DNA of 64,000 nt, taken from assembly GCA_006384855.1 (NCBI GenBank), contig VCJN01002655.1:1-64000 (forward strand). Reading direction: 5' to 3'. Shown here one piece after another: positions 17,601-64,000 of the stretch. The DNA is from Tetraselmis striata (Eukaryota > Chlorophyta > Chlorodendrophyceae > Chlorodendrales > Chlorodendraceae). The notes beneath the pieces are model-generated. The model ran no database searches. It worked only from the letters and a program-made list of their open reading frames with translations, and was not told the DNA's origin. Position 1 is the stretch's first letter, and each line of letters opens with the position of its first letter. Position numbers and translations under genes: made by a program.

Positions 17601-20600
17601 TCACAGGCCGACGTAATAGGAGCGCCCGTTGACGTTGTGCACTGGGAGCGTCTCCGGAGAGCTGGTGGCCCATTCATACCACACCTGGACGGGGTGGAAT
17701 GGGTGTGTGTGTTGGGGGGGGGGGGGGGGGGGGCGTCAGCGAGTCTGGCCGGACATCAGCCCTTTGGCATTGGGGCGGACGGGCGGGGTTTGCTGCTTGT
17801 GCGGACTGACCTTGTGAGCAGCCACGCATCGCCACATGTGCACCTCGATTTTGGATCCTGAAGGCACGAGGACGGGCTTCCGAAAGGGGAAGAAGATGGG
17901 GAACCAGCTGAACATGTTGGGCGTGTGCGTGGGCGGGTGGGTGCTCAGGGTGACGTCACCTGCCGCGCCATCGAGCGGCCATCACAATGTCAGGGACCGC
18001 CATACATGCTGCTGTATACGGTAACCTTCAGCAGTACAGCCCGACACCCGGCGCATCGAGAGCGGCGGTGCGGCGTACCATACAGCACCGACTCAAAGTA
18101 CCCGGCAAGGCCGTGCATGGCGACGGCCGGGGCATCCGCGGCGCGCTCGAACGCCATCTTCTTGTACCTCGTGTTGTCGATGTGATCCGATCTGCCGGGA
18201 GGCCACCCGGAACCGCGTGAGCGCTCATTTGCAGGCGGGATCAAATCAGCCGGCGGTCGGGGCCCGCGGGAACCGTACGCCCGCGCGCCGCCTCATCCGC
18301 CGACCGCCGACGACACGGGGCGCACCTGTTTGGGTGGGTAAAGGTGAACACCTCCTGCGTGTCGGCCAGCGGGTGGATCTTGTGGAACTTCACCACGTAG
18401 GGCGTCTCGAAGTGCTGCAGGTCGCCGTACGCCTTCACGTCACTGTACAGCTTGTTGGTGGTGATTGGGGTCTGCGGCACGGGGGCACCGCGGCGTTGAA
18501 AAAACAGCTTCGACACGTGACGAGGGCCGCGTTGCGGCTCGCTTCCCTCGGTGCGGAATACTGCCTTACTGCAACGTTGGCAAAGGGCAGCAACGATTCG
18601 AGGGGGCAGGCAGGTTTGCTGCGTGCACGCTGCGAAAGCGCCGCTGCCCGGGCGAGCGCCGACGCGGTGATAAGTAGACCGTGGAAGAGAGGGCCTGTCC
18701 TCCCTGCCTGAGGTCAGCTGCAGACCAAACTACAGGTATATATATCATACCGTAAAATTAAATACGGTTCGTGGAGCCCAAAAAGAATGAATTGTTCTGC
18801 ACTTTCGCGTCGGAACTTTCGAGCATTATTCGTGCTGTATTCTGAATTATTACTCCGTTTTTTAATTGTTTCCTATTTCGCGGGGGGTTCGAAAAAAGTT
18901 ATATTTCCGCGGACTGTTTGCACGGTAAGTAATGGAATTATAGCATATATAGGGTACTTTCCCATTTGTAGCGTTTAAGGTTTCTAATAGGGTTTATAAA
19001 ACTGAGACCCGACGTGAGGCTGAAATAATGACATGTGCTAAAGTGGGCGCTGGCACCATCGTCGCCGCTGCGGGGGATACGCTGCTCATCCGCATAGATG
19101 CGGGTGCTGGCGAGGCTGTTAACTCTGCTGCGAACAAGAACCCGGCCTGCCTGTCAGAGCTCAAATGTAGGCGAAAATATAACGTATTTATAGCAAATGT
19201 TCTCTTAGGTTGCCAGCCCCATCTGAAGCTTATAACAGTTACAAATGTTATGAATGCGCGCAATGGGTAAAAAGAAAAGTATAGTTCGCCCCGGGATATC
19301 GGCCGAAGCCGCCCCAGCACTTGACCTCTTGCGCCAACTGCAGTCGTCGGTCTGGCATAGCCCGTAGACCATTGCCTCATTCGAACCCCGAAGGCCTAAT
19401 GCATCAACCGGGTAAACCCAGGACACGCCGGCGATGGGTACTTTGGAAGTTTCTGCATGTGCATTTGCATGTGGCCGTGCAGTGGAAAGGGGTGGGTTGT
19501 CCGGGGGGACGGGGGGGGGGCATACCAGGAAACTTGTGTACGACTCCGGGATGCTGATGCCGCCATCCTTCAGGAACTCCTGTGCGCCTTTGGGGGGGGG
19601 GGGGGGGGGGGGGGGGCGCCACACAGCCTCAGCCCCCGCTCGCTGACAACGCCACGCGCGCACGGCCGCGGTTGCGAACGCACCGTCCAGACACTCGGGG
19701 GACAGCTCGTTGTCCCCGAACGAGCCCAGCAGCTCGCTCACGAGGATGTCGGCCTTCTCCGGCGCGTTCCACGAGCGCATGTCGGTGTGCACCACCGTCA
19801 CCGTGCTCTCCCACCTACCAAGCGCCCAGGCAATCCGGTAGATAAGTGCGCTACGAAGTTCTCAGACACATGTGCTCGTGTGTGTGTGTGGGGGGGGGGG
19901 GGGGGGGGCATTGGCAGCAGCTCACCCCTCGTGGAGGACGAGGTTCTGCAGAGTCACCACGGCATTGGGGTTCTTCTCCACCGCGTACACGCGCAGCTGC
20001 TTCTTGGCCCTCTTGGCGGCCTGGACCACATCCACATCGCCAGGGGCCAACCATGACGAATTGCGCTGCGGGCGGTTGCCGGGTGTGTGTTGCAGACCAT
20101 AAGGGGTGGGGGGGGGGGGGGGTGGGGGGGTACCTGGAGCGAGGCGCGCACGAGCGGGCCCCGTCCCGCCCCCACCACCATCAGCACGCAGACGTCCTCC
20201 TCCGCCGGGCGGTCCAGCAGCGCCTTGTACACCGCCTCCTGGTACGTGGTGTACTTCACGGTGTCCCGCTCAAACGTCTCGTACGTCTGGCTCTCCAGGT
20301 TGTCCTGCAGCGGCTGCAGCGGCGCCTGCAATGGCACAGCGGCAATGTGAGCACCGCTGCGCCCGCGGCATTCACCAGCACGGCGCGGCCTTTCCTACCC
20401 GATGAGATCAGGTGTACGGGCGGGCATCATGTGCACACCGTACACAAACACAGAAGGTCTGCGGATAAATAACGTTTTCGACCCCCCTCAAAGCAGGAAA
20501 AAGTATTAAAGGATGAAACATTGAAGAATACAGCTCCAATAAAGCACAAATACTTCGACGCAATGGTGCCAAACAATTCATTATCTTTTGGTCCCGCGGA

Positions 20601-46512: not shown

Positions 46513-48393
46513 GCTTACACTGCTACTGTATTGGGCTCGGTGCAGCGACGAGGCGGTCTTTAGCGCGCGCGCCGCCCTTCTCCCAACCGTACAGGTAGTG
46601 AACCGCCGCGGTAACACTCAACGTAGTGAAAAGCGATGTTCTGAGGCCGGAACGGCGCGGATCAGGCGAGAGTGACGAAGCGTCAAGGATCGCAGGCTTA
46701 GCCGCGAGGAAGCCTTCGCGGGTATCGAGGGTGGTACCGGTAACAATGTTCTTCGTGATGCTGAGCTCAAGCAGTTGCGTCGCGCACAGCAGCCGTTTGT
46801 TTCCTCATCGTTTGAGCCATCGCCACGCGGCAGGGCTGATCACCTGATCGGGGCTGGAGCTGATGCCATCATCTTTCAAATTTCAAATAGCGACTGATCG
46901 ACTACGGCGGGTTCAATAGCGACCGACGTTCATGTCATGGATGCTGCTGGGGCCGTGCTGCTGCTCGTACTGCGATGCTGGCCTGCGCTGCTGATTCGCG
47001 GTCGGGTTCTGTTCCATAAAAAATGTACCATACTTCCGCGAACTGTGGCATAACATATCAAATTATACAAGTCGCTACAGGTACTGGTAAAAAGTAAATG
47101 TAAAAGTGAAGTTCGCCCCGGGACATCGGCCGAAGCCGCCCCAGCACTGCTTGACCTCGTGCGCCAACTACAGTCGTAGGTCTGGCATAGCCCGTAGACC
47201 ATTGCCTCATTCGAACCCGCCCGAAGGCCTAATGCATCAACCGGGTAAGCGCTACTGGTACGTGCTGTGGAGATACAGCAGCAGCAGCAGCACATTGCGT
47301 GGATTACTGAGTCGGAGCAGCAGCAATAACAATAATAAGACCAGTAGCACGCAGAATCTCTCATTTGGCAGTATATAGGGGTTCCTGCCTCCCAGCAGGT
47401 CCCATGTAAAAATATTATGGTCACAACAGAAAATACGCGTTTGATTTATTTTCGTAAAACACTGTTCCGTCCCAGCCGGAGGGGCGGACAGTCACACATA
47501 AGTGCGGAATCAAACATATTAATCAAATGCGCGGAATCAAACACATTAATTGAAATGGTGTTTAATTATTCATGATGCCACAATGATAGCGAGGCATATA
47601 ATTACTGAGGGAATGTGAAAGATCTTGTTACTATATTGAAATGCTGTAGGTGTTTTGAGGACGGCGCTATGCTTATACTCGCTCATTATAGTGCTCATCA
47701 GTAGTACCACACCGCACTAGTAGCAACGACTACACGCTGACTTAGTTGGCCGCGCCTACAGACTCGTGGGAGCGATGTTGACGACCAGGCCACACCTGCC
47801 CGACAGCATGTCGCTGTACAAAACTCCAAGTACAGTAACCAGTGCAAGCTGCGTAGGCCCGCGGGGATGTGCAAAATGGCTGCTGTTGCGATGCTCTTCG
47901 GCCACCTGCACGCTGTGCAACTGAACCTGAAACCCCCCCCCCCCCCCCCCCCCCCCCCCTCATCCGAGACACCCTGTGCAGGCAAGGCGCCAGCGTACAC
48001 CATACGGCAATGCGTAGTTTGGTCGATACACCTCCTCTTGCAGCCCTCCTGGACGGGGCTCGCCCAGTGAGCCAGACGGGCAAAAGCTGCCTGCACCTGC
48101 GGCAACGGAGCTGTGATGGACAATGATTACTACCATTACATCAGCCTCCGGCAACCTTGTTCCTCAACAGACACTACGCTGCAAACCTAAAATTGGGAGC
48201 CGTCATAGCAGTGCTCGTTGCTTCGTTTCTGCAAAACAGTGGACGCAGTGCTCTCGTCCAAAGGAATGGCTCCGCAGCAAAACAACCTCGCATTGAGCCG
48301 GCATCGACGGCCAGTACCGCCACGGGCGGAGATCTTCTCACTTGCTCACCACCGCCTGCGCAGGAATGGCACACCACTCAGCCACAGCTTACC
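46513..48393. other. Gene-free region with a SINE fragment
   Basis: It contains the upstream region of the F-box gene, a SINE fragment (47103-47250), a CAGCAG microsatellite (about 47277-47292), a C run (about 47934-47960) and, at the end, the 3' UTR of the glutathione reductase gene. No further gene is supported. Confidence 0.5.
47103..47250 (-). repeat. tRNA-derived SINE, 5'-truncated copy
   Basis: On the minus strand it matches the 3' part of the SINE at 58733-58985 (TTCGAATGAGGCAATGG, GGGCTATGCCAGACCTACGA). The tRNA-like part is missing. Confidence 0.85.
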
Positions 48394-52287
<3,894 letters not shown>

Positions 52288-54320
52288 ATTGTATAGTAGC
52301 AAAACAGTACCGAAGCCCAAATATCAGCCTCAGCAAGCTTTGGAATCGGTCAGTAGCGGCGGTTTGGGGAAGAGATCGGAGAGGCGAGCGCCACGGTAAA
52401 GCGAAGTCTGCTGCTTGCCACCGCCGGCCACCATCGTCATTTGCATCGGCATCGGTATCCCGTAGCAGCACAGCAGCGCAGCGCGATCGACGTCGTCATC
52501 GTCAAGGACAGCAGTGATGACGCGGGACGCACGCGCGCACCTCTACTGACGAACGCGCCGGCCCGCCCGTCGCGACCCTACACCGGCCCGGTCCTCGTAC
52601 CTGTACTTCGGAGTACGAGGACCAGGCCGGCGTGGATAGTGCTCTTCGTGCTCTGTCCGGCTATCCCCGCCCCCCCCCCCCCCCCCGTCAGCAGCACGCA
52701 TCACCCCCCGATCACCCGCAGTACTTTACCCCAATCCGACTCCTCCCCGGGATGTAAAAACCCCATTTTTCCGGGGCGGTGAAAAAAACACCGCCAACCC
52801 ATCGCAGGGATTACGCGCTACGCGCGAGCCTAGCGGGGCTGGGCCCCCGCCGCCCCTCAGCGCGACTGCGGTACCGGGCGGCTATACTCAATTAGTCATA
52901 TCATATGCTCTTTATATGATTATAGGCCCGGGGCGAGGCGTAATAACATTTGTTCTTTATATTAAATTGCATTGTGCGTTTCGTTGCTTTTATTCTGTCC
53001 CTTCAATTGTCTACATTTGCGTGAACGTCGATACCAAATGAATTGCACCTCGAGCGTGCATGCTGTTTGATTGTGCGTGCATCAATCAGGGCTGCGCGTG
53101 GCGGGCTTTTTTTGTCTCATCGAGTTTCTGCTTGACACGGCGAGTGGACGGACTGTCGCGTATCTCAGCATCGTTGGGGCTCTCATATAATTGCTTGGCT
53201 GGTTATCCATACGTGCCTTTCCTTTTGTCGGTCGATCAGGCTTGGCCACAAGCTCTGAATCAGCGTATAGGTCCTAAAGTAAAGGTAAAGTCCGCCCCGA
53301 GATATCGGTCGAAGCCGCCCCAGCACTTGACATCTGACCTCTTGCGCCAACTGCAGTCGCAGGTCTGGCATAGCCCTTATACCAATGCTTGATTTGAACC
53401 CCAAAGGGCAAATCATGCATCAACTAGGTAAACCAGGGACACGCAGTGTCGATATTGCCGAAACACATTGACCAGGAGTCAAATCCGGAACCTCTTGGAT
53501 AAGAGACCACCGCTTCAGGAATGTACTACCAGTGCGTAGGCCCTACTGCACATCGTCCTCAAATAAGCAATACAGACAGTCCAGCCCGCTCTTGCTCTTT
53601 TCCATTCTGTGTTTGTTGCTGTCCGGCCACAAGGCAGGAAAATCTTACATACTGTGCTGGCATTCATACCGGTGTAGGCTGTGAGTTCAAACACTGTTAT
53701 CGTGGTATTTCTGGGAGCATGGGTAGGGATGGTGCTGAGCCTCATCCATGAACAATCCACGGCGGTATTCAAGCATGCGTGCAGCGCTGTACCCCACCCG
53801 CCGTTCGGAAGCTGCTGGTGCACTTCGTGGTGCAGTGGCACATTCCCAATCGAAATTGTACTGGTTGCCAACCAGGCGGTCTGGCTCTGTGCTACTCATC
53901 AGATGCAGGGACCCCAAACTTTCAAGAGTTCAGTCTACAAGGAGGTGGCGGGGCAAGCGGGCCGGTGCCGGCACTGCTCAACGAAAATGTGACAGCACAC
54001 TCCGCCATTATCTTGTAGTGCCATACCACCAATGAAGCTGCCGCTGCAGTTTTGCAGAGTACGCCCCAAATCATGTAAGTAATGCAAGACAACAGTGCTT
54101 ACAATTAGGGGTCCTCCCACGGGTATTGCTGCACAAAGATTGCGCAAGCTTTAGTGCCTAGCTGCCGCTTACCCCCGTCGGACTTGCTACTTGCCAGATT
54201 TCGGCATTTGGCTTGTTTTGTTGTTCAATCGCAGTGTGTAGTGGCAGTACGAAGTGTGTGGGGCAGCACCGGGGATTGTCAGTCTCGGGGAGGGGGAGGG
54301 GGGGGGGGGGGGGGGGGGGG
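52288..54320. other. Gene-free region with a SINE and a hairpin
   Basis: It begins with the glutathione reductase promoter region. It then has a hairpin at about 52588-52621 (GGTCCTCGTAC and GTACGAGGACC around 12 bases), a C run (about 52672-52686), a SINE (53283-53520) and ends in a G run next to the stop of the LRR gene. I see no supported ORF. Confidence 0.5.
53283..53520 (-). repeat. tRNA-derived SINE, nearly full-length diverged copy
   Basis: The minus strand matches the SINE at 58733-58985 from the tRNA-like head to the 3' end, with many substitutions and a small insertion of CAGATGT type. Confidence 0.8.
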
Positions 54321-57300
54321 TTATTGGCACTGGCGGTTGATGAGGCGCTGCAGCTGCCGCTTGTCTTTGTCGTTGGTGATCTTGAGCGCGTCCATGCGCT
54401 TGTCGAATCGCACAGGGTCTTGCAAGGAGCGCAGGCCTGTTGGGGTGGTCAGCCCGCGCTCCTCCAGCTTGCCGTACAGGTGCGAAATCTTGAAGCTCTT
54501 GAACTCCCTCTCCATGTTGGTGGTATCCTCCGCCAGCACTGGACTGACTTCAACCATCCTCAATGCGGCGACGGTGTTCTCCATCTGCACCCTAGCAGGC
54601 GCCCCCATCTTGTCCAGAATTGCTCCAGCAGCCAAGCCAGCTCCATTCACAATTGCCACCCTGGTGTGCCTGTCGAAGCCCATAGGCGCATCCTCCATCT
54701 CGCTTAGCGCATCTTCAACGGGAACCTCCAGAACCTCAACTGCTGTCAACTGCTCGATGGTGTCCTCAACGGCGTCCCCCAGACCCTCAAAGTCGGAGAG
54801 ATCTGTCAAGACTTCCAGGCCGCCAGCAACGAGGGACATGGCCATTGGTATAGCAGAGGCCACCAGAGTCCCCACTCCAGGGGTGGCGCAGTTGAGGGCG
54901 ATTGTGAGTGCCGACACGCCGATCCGGACGATCGTGACTGCCTTGGCGTTCTTCGTCGCCATGGTGTTAACGTGCTGCATTGCCTGCACGGCGCTGGTTA
55001 CCCTGTTGAGGCCGTCTGAGAGGTGGCGGATGGACGCATCGTGCTTCTGCAGAAGCTGCTTGATGTCCTTCACGAAGTCGGCCTCTTCCACGAGCTTGAT
55101 GGTGGCTTGGGCCTCCAGCGTGTGCATCTGGTACTCGCTAATCATGTCGCGCTGCAGCGCGTACTTGAGCGCCGTCATGAAGAGCGCCTTCTTGGATGGA
55201 TCCGCAGGGATCGTCTTGGAGCCGGCGTGCAGCGCGCCGGCGATGAGCTGGCTGCGCTCCTGCTGCGTGATGGCGCCAGCGTTCTGCGCGTAGCCGGAGA
55301 TGGTGAAGAACATCTGCAGCTCGGGCCAGGCGGACACGAGACCCTGCAGATGGGCGAGCGTCATCTTCATGTCCGAGTTCTCGGTGATTGCTCCGAGCGC
55401 ATACATGAAGCCTTGCTGCCGCCCTCGGGCGCCCAGGGCAGCATTGCCAGCTGGCTGCCAGGCCGGACCTGCGGACGGCAAATGTCAGAGCGATCAGTCA
55501 TCGCGTCAATGCAACGCAGTTACAGATGTGCGGAGGGAGTAAGGCTGCACGAGGTGTGCCGGCCGATACTACGCCAATTGACACAGGTGGTTGGGCAGCG
55601 TGCAGCACCAGGATATGAGGGCTTGTGATTTGTACCAGGTGTAAGGGGGCAGGGCGTATATGTGTTGCACTGACATGTGGGCATACGCACCCAGTGTAAG
55701 ATACGCCATGGCCGTGTTCTCCTGCAGGGCGCAGTTGACCGCCTGCACGCTGTCCTCGTTGAGCCCGGTGTCTTAGTAAAGGCACAGCAGCGGCAATAAC
55801 GGCGCGTCAGTATACACCACGCAGTGGCAGCGTAGCTATTATGCAGCAGCGGGCGTAAAGTAGACAGGATAGACGCAATGAGCTGGAGTGCCTAGCTGCC
55901 GGCGCCCGGTGCCCCCCCCCCCCCCCCCCCCACCACCAAAACTCACTCTGCAGGTTCAGGCTGTCCAGCGTAGAATTCCACTTCAGCATCTCCGCGACCG
56001 CAGCAGCGGCATCCGCGCTTTGGATTGCATTGCCTGAATGTTGCGGGGACGGGGGGTCTCATTATTGCGCATGCAGGCAGACATAGGCCGGCTTCAACAA
56101 TCCTACGCGGAGCCCGGTGTGGTGAGCTGCTGCTGTGTCTTGCGTTGGGGGTAGGGGGGCGCACCCGACAGGTCCAACGACTGCAGGGAGGTGTTGGTCT
56201 TAAGACTCTCAGCCAGGGCAATGACCGCAGCAGCGTCGATCCCCGTGCCTGCCATGCCAAGTACGCGTCAATATCCATGTCTTGCGCATCTCTACGGGGG
56301 GTTGACGCAAGCCAGGGCAGATTATCACGCGCGCGCAGAAATAGGCCGCACCGCGGAGGTTGAGCTCGGCAAGAGTTCTGTTGGAGGCCAGCACGCCCAG
56401 CAAGGCCTGGAGGCCTTCCTCCCCAAGTTCGTTGCCTGTCACATCATTGATACCACGAGAGGGATTCGATACATGAGACTTCACAGGAATGCAAGCAAGT
56501 GCATGCTCATTATATACAATATAGACATATATGTATGTACATAAACATACACTAACATATATAGTAGAGGACGCGGCGGTGTCCATCACAATAAACATGC
56601 AGCAGGGCATCGCGCCTACCTGCGAGGTTCAGCTTTGTGAGGGAGGCGTTCTCCAAGAGAGCGTGTGCCAATGCCGCGACACCCTGGTCGCAGATTCCAT
56701 TGCCTGCAATCACGAGCGGCCCAGGTCAGGATTGGCGCCACAGGGGACCATGGGTGTGCGTCATGATATACATCACAGTGCCGCCAGCTTCAGCCGGGCC
56801 CGTAAAGCGCAGCAAGGGCGGGCAAGAGCGCCACGCGGTTACCCACCCTCCAGGTCGAGTTCCTTCACACAGGGGTTCGTCATCAGTGCATCGGCCATGA
56901 GATGGGCTCCCTGGTCGCCAATGCCATTGACTGATGCAGCACAGCGGCAGAACAATCAGCGAATGCATAACTGCAATAATCTGCAGCACAGATATTGCAG
57001 AGAGCGGCAGACGATTGGCCGTTTAGGGTTTTGACCGTGGTGCATGGCGTCCATGGGACATGTAGTCTGCTTTCCCTGAACTTATTCTGGTGTGACCGCA
57101 GGGTCAGGATAAATAAGTTACTTGACAACATATTGTGGACATATGTAAGGCCACATTACATCGGCAATATTTACAGACAAAGACCAAATACGACGACGTG
57201 CCAGCGCTAGGAGCGCCTACTATGGGTGCCGACACGTAACAAGTCCACTGCAAACAAGACCATACTGCCCTGCCTGCCAGAGGTCAAGCCAGACGAGAGC

Positions 57301-60300
57301 GGAACTATAGCGGATGCTCTGATGGGGTACATGAAAGCCCTATTAGATACTTAGAAGTGTACGAAGAGTATAATAACAACATAATAACAATCTTATGGAT
57401 GCTGCGTCGAAACCTTTAAGACGTTTTATAACTTTATCTACAACTAAAGTAACTAAAGTACTGGTTATTTCGTTCTACAACATCTATTGCACTCTATAAG
57501 AGGTGCATGTTTCAACCTTTAAGTCGGCATTAACATGAACTAGGGCCCACGGCCGTCGGGCATTCAATTCAAGAGAGCCTGGTTGCTGCAATTCTTTATC
57601 AAGGGCGGCAGGAGAGGCCGCGAGGGGCCGGTATTTCCACAAGGCAAAACTCACATGCCAGGTTCACGCATTCCAAGCGCACGTGCGAGCCGTTGGAGTT
57701 CTGCAGCAGCAACTTGACGGCCTCTGCTCCAGACGGGCCGATGGAGTTGCCTGATCACGGCGGAAATGCGTCAGTAGCAGCTCCACATATACAAAAGCGC
57801 AAAAGCAAAGAGTGAGAATGACGATGGCTTTATCAAAGTGAAGCGTCGAAGCGATTTGTATCCACCATCCCGCCGTAGGCGGGACAATAGTATTGTATTA
57901 TTGTATGAGTGTACAAGGTACATCCCTTGTTCGCTCGGTTGAGCGGTCGTCGTCTCGTACACGAGAGGTCCGTGTATCGAGTCCTGGCCGATGTATTTCG
58001 GCAATATCGTCCCGGCGTGTCCTGGGTTTACCCGGTTGATACATTATAGCCCTTCGGGGTTCGAATGAGGCAATGATTTACGGGCTATGTCAGACCTATG
58101 ACTGCAGTTGGCGCAAGAGGTCAAGTGCTGGGGCGGCTTTGGCCGATGTCCCGGGGCGAACTTTACTTCTATTTATTTTGTGTACGGGGTATGTAGTCGT
58201 ACACTCGTACTATGTACAGGCCGATGACGAATGCAGCGTCAGTACTCGTCGAGCTCGTCTACGAAACGACGTAGGGGTATTGCATTTCGAACACGGCGAG
58301 TGAAGCAGTACAGGTGTGAATTACAAAAAGGGCAGTAACAAATCCACCTACTACGAAAGCAGTACAGGTACATGATATCGCTGCGTGATTAGTTTATATA
58401 GCGCGGCCGAAATTAGGGGCGCGATGTCGTCCCATCTTATCGTCGTCCCAATAATTCATCAACTACTAATATGACATTGCGTTGCGTCATATATTATCGG
58501 GATATAAATCATTTTTCCGGGATATAAATCATCGTCACGCAATAAATAATCATGATTGCAGGTACCCGTAAGGATTACCGATAGCCGTGATTACTGGTGA
58601 ATGCACTTGTAGCTTTTAGATCCTGCCTGGTGTGAATTACAAAAAGGGCAGGTCCCCAGAATTAGAAAATCAACACAGCAAGGCGCCGAAAAGCGGCCTT
58701 GTACCTTTTAGGTAGTGGTTTGTTTACATACGTAGGTGGCTCCCTTGTAGGCTCGGTAGAGCGGTCGTCTCGTATGCGAGAGACCCGGGTTCGATTCCTG
58801 GCCGATGCATTTCGGCAATATCGGCCCGGCGTGTCCCGGGTTTCCCCGGTTGATGCATTAGCCCTTCGGGGTTCGAATGAGGCAATGGTCTATGGGCTAT
58901 GCCAGACCTACGACTGCAGTTGGCGCACGAGGTCAAGTGCTGGGGCGGCTTCGGCCGATGTCCCGGGGCGAACTTTACTTGTACGAAGGTGGCTTGATGG
59001 GATTTGACACTGAAGTAGAGGTACAGGTACCGCTCCTGGCAGTAGGAGATCAAATACCTCAAGGTGCACTTCTAAGGGAGTGGAAAACTCGCTATGAATC
59101 CATACGCATGCTCTGATGTATGTTATACTCGCACAGGTAGAGTGGACACTCGTAGTACGGGTACTTCTCGCGCCACCCGCTACTGTATGCGCTGACGATG
59201 ATGCGCGCCGGCAATCGAAATACAGTACTGGAGTATCCCCATTTATCAATTGGGCACGACGCAGTAGTACCCGTACTGGTAGCGACTACCCTGGATTTCT
59301 CGAATTTTGCAGCTAGCACATGTAATCCGGGGGCGGAAAAACAAAAAAAGCACACGTAATCACTACTCTGTAGTTAGCGCGACCTGATTGTCCTTTTTGG
59401 GTGATTTCCTAGCATGTCGCCTTCTGCTACTAGCTCATGTAGTTAGCGCGACTATTCACTACCGCACCCGCAGCGGAGCGAACCGGCGCACTGGCCACGA
59501 GTCGTCGCGTGACTCGTCGCCGATCAGCAGTACCCGTACTCGACCGGCGCGCGGGTCATTCGCGACTAGTCGCTGCTACGAGTAAGGATTGAAGTGGTGT
59601 GATGTTTTCGTACTGCTTTTAGCGGTGGATTTTTAATACTCGCCCTTTTGACGTTCACGAGTACAAGTACGGGGATATCTGCTCATACTGTACAGGAGGA
59701 TACACAAGGGGTTTTATGTACACGTGTACATGATCATGCCACCAATAACCCGAATAACGCTACGGGGTACATCAACTGCATATTGAAATCAGACCATGAC
59801 GCGTGTCACTTTTATTTTCACTTAGTCGCTATCTCAGGGCGCTATAGATCAGCGCTAGATGTAATGCTCCGGCGTATTGCTGTTTAATGAATAAATGAAC
59901 GGCTTCAAATTGATCTCAAACGAAATCGATGCATTACGTGGGTGTTTAAACCGAATGCTGTTTAGTGTCTTAACCAAATGTCTTGTGCTACTGTTGCGCC
60001 AATATATTAGCCTACTTGTACCTGCCTCTTGGGTGACAGTAAGCTGCTTCACGCAGATCTCAGGCAGGATAAGGACATGTTTAAATTAAAGCAGACCATG
60101 GGTGTTATCGAGGGTGTCGTCCTGGATCAATCTTCAATGTCTATAATCATTGCGGTATATATCCTAATTTACTGAATAAAATATATCTGATGAGTGCGAT
60201 GCTTATCGAAGGGCAGCTTTCATCAAGGGAACCCCCCCCCCCACCCCCACCCCCCCCCCCAGTTCACTCATTTGGAAGGAGGGTGGAGGCTTAGAAGGGG

Positions 60301-63300
60301 CGAAGGGCAAGGCGGGGGCTCACCGGAAAGATTGACTTCCGACAGGCTTGAGATCTTCGACAGCGTTTCCACAAGGCTGACTGATTCCTCCATACCAAAG
60401 GAATTACCTGCGCAGCGCCATGGCCCCAAGCAGTCAGCCGACCGCACACGGCGATTGCTGACGGCATCCGCCATGCTCGCACCGCTGGGCCGCAGCACCG
60501 CACCGCTGAGGTCCAGCTTCTGCAGACCCGATTGGTGCTCCGCGAGCGCCAGCATGGCTGCCTGGGCCATGGCCGCCGTGATGCCGTTCCCTGTGGTTCA
60601 CGCGTGCCAGCAGCACATCGCCATCGAAAAAGTCAATTGGCATCCCGATTTAATCCCTACAGTACCCGTTCATCCACGGCGCCGGGCGTGGGGTGGAGGG
60701 GTCGGCACTGCTAGGGCGCTGCTGCAGGAACACGTCATATACATACCGTACCATTCAGTTCGGTGTGCGAGTCCACACAATAATAAGGAATTGTTTTGTA
60801 CCATCGCGTCGGAATGTCCGCACATTTTAACGGCAAATTCTGACATGGTCTACCTCTTTGCGCTGGAAAGGGGGGGGGGGGGGCAAAAACAGCAATAATG
60901 GTATATAGCGAACCCAAAACGTGGTTTCAGTAAGCCTACAATTTCGGTTGCTTGCTAAATATCTAGATAGAAAAATCGCGTGACTTTGGTCCATATTGAT
61001 CTCAATTGATATTGACAGGTTTGGCAGGCTACTAAAGTATTAGTGACTATTTCCGCGGCGGGGCTGCTAGGAGAGTAGCATACAGGTGGCATACCTGCCA
61101 GGGACAAGCCGCGAAGGGCGGTCGCCTTCTTCAGCAGCCCCTTTGTCAGGGCCTCCAAGCCGCTGTCACCGATGCCATTCCCTGCGCGCGTCGCCGCATA
61201 CATGACCGACCTCAGCAGCTCAGCGCATGCATCCATCTCGTGCACACACGGGGGAAACTCATGACGGGGGCTACACATGCAGGCATGGGTCTTAGCCAAT
61301 CGCTCTGGGCACCCGTCCGCCCGAATCCATACCGGTCAGGTCGAGGTTGGTCAGCTTGCGCCCGTTCTTTGCCTGGGCTGCAAGCATGGTTGTGAGGGCC
61401 TGGATGCCGTCCACTTTGAGATGGAACGCGCCTGGGTCACACCCCCGCGCGGGAGAAGTGATCAGAGGCGGGGCGGCGGGGGGCAGAAGGGGGGGGGGGG
61501 GTCAGTTGCGCGCTGCTAGGCGAGGCACCACGTCCGTGAGCGGCGATCCCAGGGGTTGCAGGTTGCCATCAGCGTACCCGTGAAATTGAGCTGCTCCATG
61601 TCCTGCATCCTGCGGTACATCTTCTCCACCGTCTCCATCACCGTCTGGGCATCCGTGTTGTAGTGCTCTGCACAGCGAGGCAGGGCACACATGCAGCAAT
61701 CCGTACTCGGCGTCTGGGTCAGGTCAGGTGGCACATGGATGATGTGCCAGCCGCGGCGGCACGCACCGTCAATGTCGACCCTCTGCAGTGTGGCTCGGCT
61801 CAGCAATGCGGCGCCAATTGCTCTGGCGCCGGCCGGGGTCAGCGGATTGTCTGCACCGCCACAGCAAAACCACTCAGAATACATGCAAAGGAACTGCGAG
61901 TGGGTGTTCCTCCCAGGTGTTGTACCCAGCGCGCATGCAGCATGCTGTGCGAGTGATCATTACCCGTGAGCACAACGGTCTCAATGACCTGATTCTTCAT
62001 GAGCGCCGACGACAGAGCCTCAGCCCCCTCCGGCCCGATGCCATTGCCTGCCAAAGACGGGCAAAAATAGTCACCGCATGCAACGCTGGGCAGGACTCCC
62101 CGCATCATGCAAACTGGTCAAACTACTGGGCAGGGCTGTCGCACCTCGCAGATTCACCCGCTTGAGGGACATGTTGACGGCCAGAGCCTCGGCTAGGGCC
62201 ACCATCCCCTTGTCACCGATGGCATTGTCTACATGTACACCCCCAGGCGGTGGGAATGGCCGGGGGGGGGGGGGGGGGGGGGGGAGAGGTAATCATTGAA
62301 ACATTGATGTGCTGCATCCCCTGCGTTTCCCATGTGTTGTTTCTTCAGGCGCGGATCAGGGCTAAAGACTCCACGGAGGCATCCCACCTGCCAGGTTGAG
62401 CTCCTCCACAGCCACATGGTTCCGCAGAATCTCCACCAGTGAGAACACACCCTTCTTTCCAATGCAGTGCAGTCCACCTACGGCACAGGAGCATGGTACA
62501 TCTTACCGTATTCAGTGATGATTTGATGTAAGTTAGGGCATGCTGCATGTCTTCCACGATGCGAGCCAATGGCACAGCGAGGGGCTCATCTCAAGGAGGG
62601 TGGACATCCCCCCCCCCGGCGAGGCAGGATAAATTCTGCGACGACAGCATCACACCCACCTGAGAAGTTCAACCGGGTTGTCTGCTTGATGCTCTCATCG
62701 TTCATCAGGTTTTCAGCCGCTTGCCAGCCTTGCTTCGCTTTGTCTGCGCGTGCATGAGACAGTGTAGAAGCAAACAGAAGCCACACAGTCAGCCTCAACA
62801 TGCGGCTGCGTCATGTCTTTTAAAGACGCTTGGCGGAATGCCCACGCATTGACAGACTGCCGATGGCGCTGCGCACCATCAACAACAAACGTGACATCGG
62901 CCACGTGCATCTTGCGGCCAAGGGCGGCACCCCCCTCGCCGTTGATTTTGTTGCCTGCACATGCACAATGCGCTCAGAGATGGAGCGGCATGTCGACCGT
63001 CATTGGGCAGCATGCCGGGTAAGACGCCATCAGAGTGATTGACACGTGCATTGTTTATTGTTTACCAGTTATGGCTATAAACTGGCGACACCCTGGACTT
63101 CTGCTAGGGAACTCCAGACAACAACTTTAAACAGTGGTTTGGGGTGCTTTGGGCCATATTTTACTCCGACACACGGAAAGCAGGAGTTTGTGGCCTTAGT
63201 CACCACGTTTTGGGAGATTTGGGGGTACTTACTAGCCGGCTATTAACCGCTCACAAAGCAGATTGGGGACTTGGGGATAGAAACCAGTCGCAGGTACAAT

Positions 63301-63922
63301 GCAGGGTGGGGCATGCCACACGCCCACGCCGCACGCCGTTTCACCTTTCAGATTGATGTTGGAAACGCTCATGTTCACCGTCAGCATGTCGCCAATCTCG
63401 CGCGCCGTCTGGTTGCCAACACCGCACCCTGCGCGAAAGCCGCAATAACAGGCGTCAGCATGCACGGCTGGGTTCGCACAGTGGATCACGCAAAACCTTC
63501 GGATGCGCGTTGGATGGGCGTCACATGCGCCTCACTCACGCTTGAGACTCAAGTCCTTCAGGCAGTGGTTCTTCCTCAGCGCTTTCCCAAACGCCACGCC
63601 TCCTTCATCGCCGATGTCATTGCCTGGCGCAGGCACAGCGGCATAATTGAACTCAGCATTATCTCGCACAAGGACTGCAGCAAAACTCCATGGCCGTGGG
63701 GCGCCCTCAAAATACATTGCTGTTGTAAAGATGCAGCAGCAATCGGGGCACATCAATCAGCAGATACTCTGCTGGGGAGTAGGGCGGCGAACGCCATGTG
63801 GGCGAGAGGGGGGGGGGGGGGGGGGGGGGGGGGATTACCATCCATGATGAGCCGCTGCAACGAGTTGTTACTCTTGAGGGCGTCCGCAATGGCAGCAGCC
63901 CCTGAGGCCGTGATGTTGGTGC
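54321..63922 (-). CDS. Large LRR protein, one repeat per exon, with a novel C-terminal domain (5' end outside window)
   Basis: 21 LRR exons: 63922-63839, 63623-63540, 63428-63345, 62954-62877, 62743-62660, 62477-62388, 62228-62145, 62047-61964, 61850-61767, 61667-61578, 61431-61333, 61181-61095, 60590-60504, 60407-60324, 57750-57655, 56930-56847, 56703-56620, 56435-56352, 56248-56165, 56033-55947, 55771-55691; then the last exon 55468-54321 (stop). All junctions are phase 1. Twelve of the 21 are exactly 84 nt and the others 78-99. Each encodes one ribonuclease-inhibitor-type LRR such as GNGIGPEGAEALSSALMKN. The last exon adds 382 residues: helices, a small-residue-rich hydrophobic stretch, and a C-terminal segment weakly like a SAM domain. 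Start and any upstream domain lie beyond 64000. Function is unknown; an NLR-like sensor is one possibility, an RNH1- or RanGAP-like scaffold another. Confidence 0.88.
54816..54938 (-). other. Hydrophobic, small-residue-rich segment in the C-terminal domain of the LRR protein
   Basis: About 40 residues are rich in Ala, Gly, Val, Ile, Leu, Ser and Thr with no charge except one Arg (VRIGVSALTIAL ... VGTLVASAIPMAMSLVAGG). It follows an amphipathic Gln/Lys/Glu-rich helical region. It could span or insert into a membrane. Confidence 0.55.
57918..58168 (+). repeat. tRNA-derived SINE, full-length diverged copy in an LRR-gene intron
   Basis: It has a tRNA-like head with a degenerate A box (CGCTCGGTTGAGCGG) and the same body as the copy at 58733. 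The B box is changed (GTATCGAGTCC). It lies antisense in the 2.6-kb intron between the LRR exons at 60324 and 57750. Confidence 0.85.
58314..58360 (+). repeat. Dispersed repeat family R1, copy 2
   Basis: TGTGAATTACAAAAAGGGCAG followed by TAACAAATCCACCTACTACG, related to 34066-34155 and 58631-58712. Confidence 0.6.
58631..58712 (+). repeat. Dispersed repeat family R1, copy 3
   Basis: It starts with the same TGTGAATTACAAAAAGGGCA and ends with AAAATCAACACAGCAAG and a GCCGAAAAGCGGC hairpin as at 34066-34155. The middle part is deleted. Confidence 0.6.
58733..58985 (+). repeat. tRNA-derived SINE, best-preserved copy
   Basis: The head resembles a tRNA gene, with an A box (AGGCTCGGTAGAGCGG) and a B box (GGTTCGATTCC) 30-40 bp apart, giving an internal RNA polymerase III promoter. 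A tRNA-unrelated body of about 170 bp follows, containing TTCGGGGTTCGAATGAGG and GTCCCGGGGCGAACTTTACTT. It lacks a CCA end and continues past the tRNA region, so it is a SINE rather than a tRNA gene. Confidence 0.88.
59401..59446 (+). repeat. LINE 3'-end-like fragment
   Basis: GTGATTTCC, TCGCCTTCTGCT and TAGCTCATGTA match the 3' end of the LINE at 29762-29802. A third relative lies inverted at 33990-34022. Confidence 0.6.
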
Positions 63923-64000
63923 CTACAATCCACAAAGACCAGTCATGTCACGCAAAATTGCCTAAGCTGCACGAATGCAAGGGTACCAGTCTGCATGAAG

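Follow-up and report, generated by a model that had tools for sequence, protein, structure and literature searches.

An LRR gene with one repeat per exon

The window analysed here, a stretch of 64,000 nucleotides corresponding to bases 1-64000 of contig C2142 (76,663 bases; assembly of 224 Mb in 2903 contigs), carries on its minus strand part of a predicted gene composed mainly of leucine-rich repeats (LRRs) of the ribonuclease inhibitor (RI) type, each encoded by an exon of its own. We regard the gene as real and, judging from its sequence, probably functional. The reading that we favour, and to which we give about an even chance, is that of an intact nuclear gene for a membrane-associated LRR scaffold or sensor, in which a solenoid of 28 LRRs is combined with a probably helical C-terminal domain.

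Exons were rebuilt by requiring an AG acceptor, a GT donor, a length that is a multiple of three and an open phase-1 frame, and those past position 64000 were read from the remaining 12.7 kb of C2142, which continues to 76663. The resulting model has 31 exons and runs from 67024 to 54321 on C2142. The joined coding frame of 3933 nt (1310 residues) is interrupted by no stop codon and no frameshift, and encodes, in this order, a 128-residue N-terminal region, 28 RI-type LRRs and a 381-residue C-terminal domain. There are 29 GT-AG introns and one GC-AG intron. All 30 are in phase 1, also the ones at either end of the LRR array, where the N- and C-terminal regions are attached; the junction codon is glycine at 18 of the 30 exon junctions. 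Every LRR exon has a length divisible by three, and 15 of the 28 measure exactly 84 nt. All 21 exons of 78-99 nt described in an earlier note on this DNA (55691-63922; 12 of them of exactly 84 nt, all with phase-1 introns on both sides) were recovered, as was the correspondence of one symmetric phase-1 exon to one RI-type LRR. Extension past the window end, which that note had called for, made it possible to model the whole gene and added seven LRR exons (64085-65745 in C2142 numbering), so that the array counts 28 repeats instead of 21. The start of the interval originally proposed, 54321, does lie within the gene, but marks the stop codon of the terminal exon and not an LRR exon.

Evidence that the gene is intact

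All 76,663 bases of C2142 were scanned on both strands for splice-bounded LRR exons (score at least 15, GC donors not accepted). Eighteen of the 19 matches coincide exactly with exons of the model, all in phase 1, and one lies elsewhere on the contig; 20 first-order Markov shuffles of the 12.2-kb gene region produced two matches in total. The 10 of 28 model exons that fall under the threshold (LRR 1, 4, 11, 12, 13, 17, 18, 20, 21 and 27) are supported by frame, splice sites and position; among these, the exon of LRR4 carries the GC donor. For exons 1 and 2, which encode the N-terminal region, a codon-usage test was applied: none of 3000 null windows, which may hold stop codons and were partly drawn from the introns serving as background, reached the scores of these exons, and on the gene strand the predicted frame alone was positive for both.

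Further support comes from contig C2443, which holds a second, 99% identical copy of the C-terminal exon. C2443:1-44169 matches window positions 59621 to 1 colinearly in the opposite orientation, covering ~39.6 of 59.6 kb (main holes at ~0.1-6.0 and 23.4-37.1 kb), with the larger pieces ~93-99% identical. It is probably the second haplotype, although it may alternatively be a large duplicated segment; the argument for selection is valid for either. All eight 3′ exons (24-31) are present on C2443 with every splice site and frame kept. In these exons 10 of 1743 coding nucleotides differ (6 synonymous and 4 nonsynonymous differences; dN 0.0030, dS 0.0143). Within the same stretch, coding sequence has fewer substitutions per site than non-coding sequence (10/1748 versus 59/2620; Fisher P 5e-6), and indels between the two copies amount to 0 coding and 65 non-coding nucleotides. 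The lower rate of coding substitution, together with the kept frames, indicates that exons 24-31 are real and under purifying selection. No second copy of the 5′ half turned up in the assembly, and that part hence lacks selection support of this kind.

Frameshifts betraying a decayed array had been named in the earlier note as an outcome that would overturn its interpretation, and none was found. Three repeats (LRR11, LRR12 and LRR17) do match the consensus poorly and intron 23 has been enlarged by repeats, as decay might lead one to expect, but the 3933-nt open frame and the purifying selection on exons 24-31 make a decayed array hardly credible, and we reject it.

The LRR solenoid and its relation to RNH1 and NLRs

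When the N-terminal region and the LRRs were compared with Pfam, LRR_6 was matched with E = 2.7e-72; LRR families were the only ones over their cut-offs, two further matches remaining below theirs. The repeat consensus, NGIGxxGxxALxxALxxNxxLxxLxLx (derived from 22 of the 28 repeats, some of them trimmed), is of the RI type. Consistently, among the best 60 of 65 sequences of solved structures in the PDB matched by the LRRs, the closest is ribonuclease inhibitor (E = 1.5e-34), followed by LRRC34, other LRR proteins, NLRPs, radial spoke protein 15 and DRC5. The suggestion that the protein is RNH1-like thus holds for the type of repeat but not for the overall make-up: RNH1 is little more than an LRR solenoid, whereas the algal protein has 28 repeats and, in addition, 128 N-terminal and 381 C-terminal residues.

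The other suggestion, that of an NLR-like sensor, was to be decided by the N-terminal domain, which lies outside the window. As now modelled, this region (exons 1-2, beginning MFSSCFC) matches no Pfam family, including NB-ARC and NACHT, and its best PDB matches, designed ankyrins at E = 0.013, are taken as chance. NLR membership is rejected on the modelled N-terminus, and the searches of the genome are consistent with this. NB-ARC gave no match in the genome at E ≤ 0.001 (79 candidates scored). NACHT gave 12, with E values from 4e-6 to 2e-4; each of these passes the family cut-off, and none is on C2142. These searches were made in six frames without introns, so that intron-split domains elsewhere could escape them; control genomes were matched in 11 of 14 cases by the NACHT model and in 6 of 14 by the NB-ARC model, which shows the searches to be lenient, not blind. 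The NACHT places include C116, C2068, C544, C551, C2552, C2711 and C237; 8 of the 12 matches lie within open frames of 1374-1489 residues, resembling one gene family.

The LRRs, which in NLRs are C-terminal, are central here and followed by the 381-residue non-LRR domain. What the protein does have in common with the NOD/NLRC subset is an exon of ~84 nt for each 28-residue RI-type LRR, in 28 exons. By its defining domain, the protein stands outside the NLR family. Nor did ROC GTPase or COR give any Pfam match in the three protein pieces scanned.

The C-terminal domain and possible functions

No Pfam or NCBIfam family was matched above its cut-off by the C-terminal domain, whose best PDB match has E = 0.76. 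No relative of it was found in phage records or prokaryote genomes, and none of either terminal domain in viral contigs; PADLOC had no match for the N- or the C-terminal domain. A single match of the terminal domains among plasmids (E = 0.2) and matches in PHROG (E = 0.012-0.074) are taken as chance. The sequence of the C-terminal domain is nevertheless suggestive. Residues ~130-161 form an amphipathic, heptad-like stretch resembling a coiled coil, after which come two hydrophobic stretches, at residues 176-194 and 201-219, with a short, turn-like segment containing Pro and Gly between them. Their mean Kyte-Doolittle values over 19 residues, 1.73 and 1.68, are the highest in the whole protein; the usual threshold for membrane segments is ~1.6. 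The domain is probably helical, and the hydrophobic pair represents a possible membrane hairpin.

Based on these features, the protein, which is probably intracellular, may serve as an LRR scaffold or sensor associated with a membrane. Binding would take place on the LRR solenoid, which the C-terminal domain would tether to a membrane; alternatively, this domain would change its state at a membrane upon binding by the LRRs. Several points weigh against this reading. The hydropathy of the two stretches barely exceeds the usual membrane threshold, and they could instead be buried as a helix pair in the core of a soluble bundle. Homologues of the terminal domains outside this genome were not found in searches that covered prokaryotes, viruses, plasmids and solved structures, and hardly any eukaryotic genomes. 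The exon model and its junctions are predictions from genomic sequence, the copy on C2443 spans exons 24-31 alone, and the codon model was trained on the remaining exons of the same gene; moreover, the codon test gave a positive, though lower, score for one frame of exon 2 on the reverse strand (0.106 versus 0.224).

A second reading takes the protein for a structural RI-type LRR component of a cytoskeletal assembly such as the flagellum, comparable to radial spoke protein 15, DRC5 and LRRC34. Among the PDB matches listed are LRRC34 (4.9e-30), MOP84A (3.6e-26), radial spoke protein 15 (1.1e-21) and DRC5 (4.7e-18), all chains that we take to be axonemal. However, the best stretches cover ~155-230 residues of generic RI repeats, that is, part of the LRR array, and among the same matches ribonuclease inhibitor scores above all axonemal chains while NLRP5 (5e-24) falls in their range. 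Neither terminal domain is convincingly matched by any solved chain, and we know of no axonemal protein with 28 repeats and a hydrophobic C-terminal domain. Given this balance, in a comparison that covered proteins with solved chains, a structural role appears unlikely.

A third reading is that of an NLR-like immune sensor without a nucleotide-binding switch, whose LRRs would recognise a pathogen product and whose C-terminal domain would perforate membranes as a putative helical executioner of MLKL/HeLo-like type. The amphipathic stretch and the hydrophobic segments would suit such a role, but PADLOC matched neither terminal domain, NB-ARC and NACHT are absent from the protein, and the genome has no NB-ARC match. 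There is also no sign of an expanded family or of recent shuffling of the repeats, and the second copy of exons 24-31 differs by four amino acids, unlike what is expected of a fast-evolving receptor. We consider this reading rather improbable, even though the LRR class and the layout of one LRR per exon are those described for human NOD/NLRC genes in PMC6642158. A bolder version of the sensor idea is distinctly unlikely: here the gene would encode a 'switchless' sensor of the green lineage, a solenoid of 28 RI-type LRRs with a membrane-active helical C-terminal domain, which reached the NOD/NLRC layout independently and in which exon skipping could tune the number of repeats.

Origin of the array

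According to the earlier note, the array grew by tandem exon duplication. Neighbouring repeats share on average 7.9 identical residues, compared with 7.5 for all pairs, and their mean alignment score (24.6) is slightly the highest of 14 distances (18.1-23.9 for the others). Nucleotide identity between LRR exons reaches at best 0.65, and comparison of the introns with one another revealed no similarity. A recent tandem expansion is rejected on these grounds. The LRR exons are, by such measures, mutually old, and growth by duplication, plausible as it is, has left little trace. Duplication of an exon-plus-intron unit in the distant past would be the simplest route to the layout; this origin is plausible, but beyond proof from this gene.

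Alternatively, introns may have been inserted repeatedly, at one place per repeat. The glycine at 18 of 30 junctions is a uniform setting of the kind that insertion at a preferred site might exploit, the introns have no common sequence, and the exons are too diverged to reveal duplication. Against insertion speaks the identical phase of all 30 introns and the fact that every repeat has one intron and none is without; in addition, like layouts in unrelated LRR lineages are ascribed to duplication or shuffling in PMC6564038 and PMC11378527. Insertion is, in our estimate, rather unlikely.

The related claim, that repeats can be gained or lost without breaking the frame, is formally true, and the frame would survive skipping or duplication of an exon, but nothing was seen to show that this happens at present: all seven LRR exons covered by C2443 are there, the same as in the gene. 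The N-terminal domain has no second copy in the genome at E ≤ 1 and the C-terminal domain only that on C2443 at E ≤ 0.1, and a large paralogous family is accordingly rejected. Of 11 loci around LRR_6 matches, L026 alone (C1487:3000-5200) yielded phase-1 LRR exons (score at least 14), which means that the layout is not general in this genome. L034 and L035 have the same 84-nt LRR unit, but in another phase, and L033 has a unit of 102 nt. The exons of L026 (87 and 81 nt) likewise encode RI-type LRRs; there, unlike in the gene described here, neighbouring LRRs also occur in longer frames that span two or more repeats.

Genome context

The assignment to a green-lineage genome is supported in that the host is photosynthetic and probably green: 63 places in the genome match the chlorophyll a/b-binding family, and the solved chains nearest to one light-harvesting complex (LHC) protein are named LHC or chlorophyll a-b proteins, several of them presumably from green algae. 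The host is most likely a green alga. Many similar LHC copies are found in the genome, including five light-harvesting genes at C1767:222840-280606 whose profile scores are identical or almost so.

The features of the LRR gene are listed below. Long homopolymer runs of G or C lie directly behind the stop codon (54298-54320) and in introns (55912-55931, 62262-62284 and 63808-63833).

Predicted features of the LRR gene; positions past 64000 are in C2142 numbering, beyond the window
Feature	Content	Position	Strand	Length (nt)	Remark
Exon 31	381-residue C-terminal domain (P0002), stop TAA	54321..55468	-	1148	
Exon 30	LRR28	55691..55771	-	81	kept on C2443
Exon 29	LRR27	55947..56033	-	87	kept on C2443
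Exon 28	LRR26	56165..56248	-	84	kept on C2443
Exon 27	LRR25	56352..56435	-	84	kept on C2443
Exon 26	LRR24	56620..56703	-	84	kept on C2443
Exon 25	LRR23	56847..56930	-	84	kept on C2443
Exon 24	LRR22	57655..57750	-	96	kept on C2443
Intron 23	dispersed repeats, including SINE-like copies	57751..60323	-	2573	C2443 begins inside
Exon 23	LRR21	60324..60407	-	84	
Exon 22	LRR20	60504..60590	-	87	
Exon 21	LRR19	61095..61181	-	87	
Exon 20	LRR18	61333..61431	-	99	
Exon 19	LRR17	61578..61667	-	90	
Exon 18	LRR16	61767..61850	-	84	
Exon 17	LRR15	61964..62047	-	84	
Exon 16	LRR14	62145..62228	-	84	
Exon 15	LRR13	62388..62477	-	90	
Exon 14	LRR12	62660..62743	-	84	poor consensus fit
Exon 13	LRR11	62877..62954	-	78	
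Exon 12	LRR10	63345..63428	-	84	
Exon 11	LRR9	63540..63623	-	84	
Exon 10	LRR8	63839..63922	-	84	
Intron 9	portion within window	63923..64000	-		
Exon 9	LRR7	64085-64171	-		
Exon 8	LRR6	64436-64519	-		
Exon 7	LRR5	64642-64725	-		
Exon 6	LRR4	64843-64932	-		GC donor
Exon 5	LRR3	65071-65151	-		
Exon 4	LRR2	65273-65356	-		
Exon 3	LRR1	65659-65745	-		
Exon 2	N-terminal region	66440-66598	-		codon test
Exon 1	start codon	66799-67024	-		codon test

A dispersed repeat of ~240 bp, likely a short interspersed nuclear element (SINE), is located at 58741-58980 (+), with further copies at ~58012-58168, 47096-47248 and 19271-19431. It has what we take to be A and B boxes resembling those of a tRNA promoter, and ARAGORN detected no tRNA in it. 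A 1.6-kb query containing the repeat gave 3206 candidate places in the genome, and most of the 40 that were scored are 95-98% identical. Past the window, upstream of the LRR gene, C2142 68371-71439 (-) is occupied by a mobile element with a 553-residue frame resembling tyrosine recombinases (Phage_int_SAM_1, E = 5.6e-8) and a 322-residue frame; one peptide stretch is encoded near both of its ends. Exons at ~48400-51760 (-) in the window are presumably glutathione-reductase-like, a name given from motifs; a 31-residue piece of them had no Pfam match.

Comparison with known one-repeat-per-exon systems

By analogy with other lineages, the architecture of one LRR per exon is known in kind. In humans, the majority of NOD and NLRC genes devote one exon to each 28-residue LRR, while NLRP genes have two LRRs per exon (171 bp in NLRP3), according to PMC6642158. 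The analogy with NOD/NLRC exons drawn in the earlier note is therefore borne out by that text: RI-type LRRs, frame-preserving exons and one 28-residue repeat per exon are shared. The algal gene differs in having no NACHT, 28 repeats and an extra C-terminal domain. In brown algae, ROCO genes (LRR-ROC-COR) likewise encode one LRR per symmetric exon, in this case 72-bp phase-2 exons with one 23-residue LRR each, but, according to PMC11378527, they include a GTPase domain, form several genes and are subject to intense shuffling and diversifying selection. Here the exons are mostly of 84 nt, in phase 1 and of the RI type, no family is seen and the repeats are old. Long arrays of equal LRR exons in a single intron phase are also reported for Tetrahymena, where, according to PMC6564038, the exons measure exactly 90 bp, are in phase 2 and belong to thousands of young genes across ten species; those of the algal gene vary around 84 nt, are in phase 1 and belong to one gene.

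A few green algae are known to have NBS-LRR genes (PMC8891106). Among the matches listed in a search of open-access full texts, we found no description of a green-algal gene with one LRR per exon. What is new is that mostly 84-nt phase-1 exons of the RI type are combined with a C-terminal domain of unfamiliar kind, in a protein in which no NTPase can be recognised. This domain is a candidate for a new membrane-binding module. If expression and splicing are confirmed, green algae would join animals, brown algae and ciliates as a lineage with one LRR per exon. That the array is old and no gene family is visible would also imply that the layout alone is no mark of a rapidly shuffling immune receptor, and the gene offers a clean test case for separating the two.

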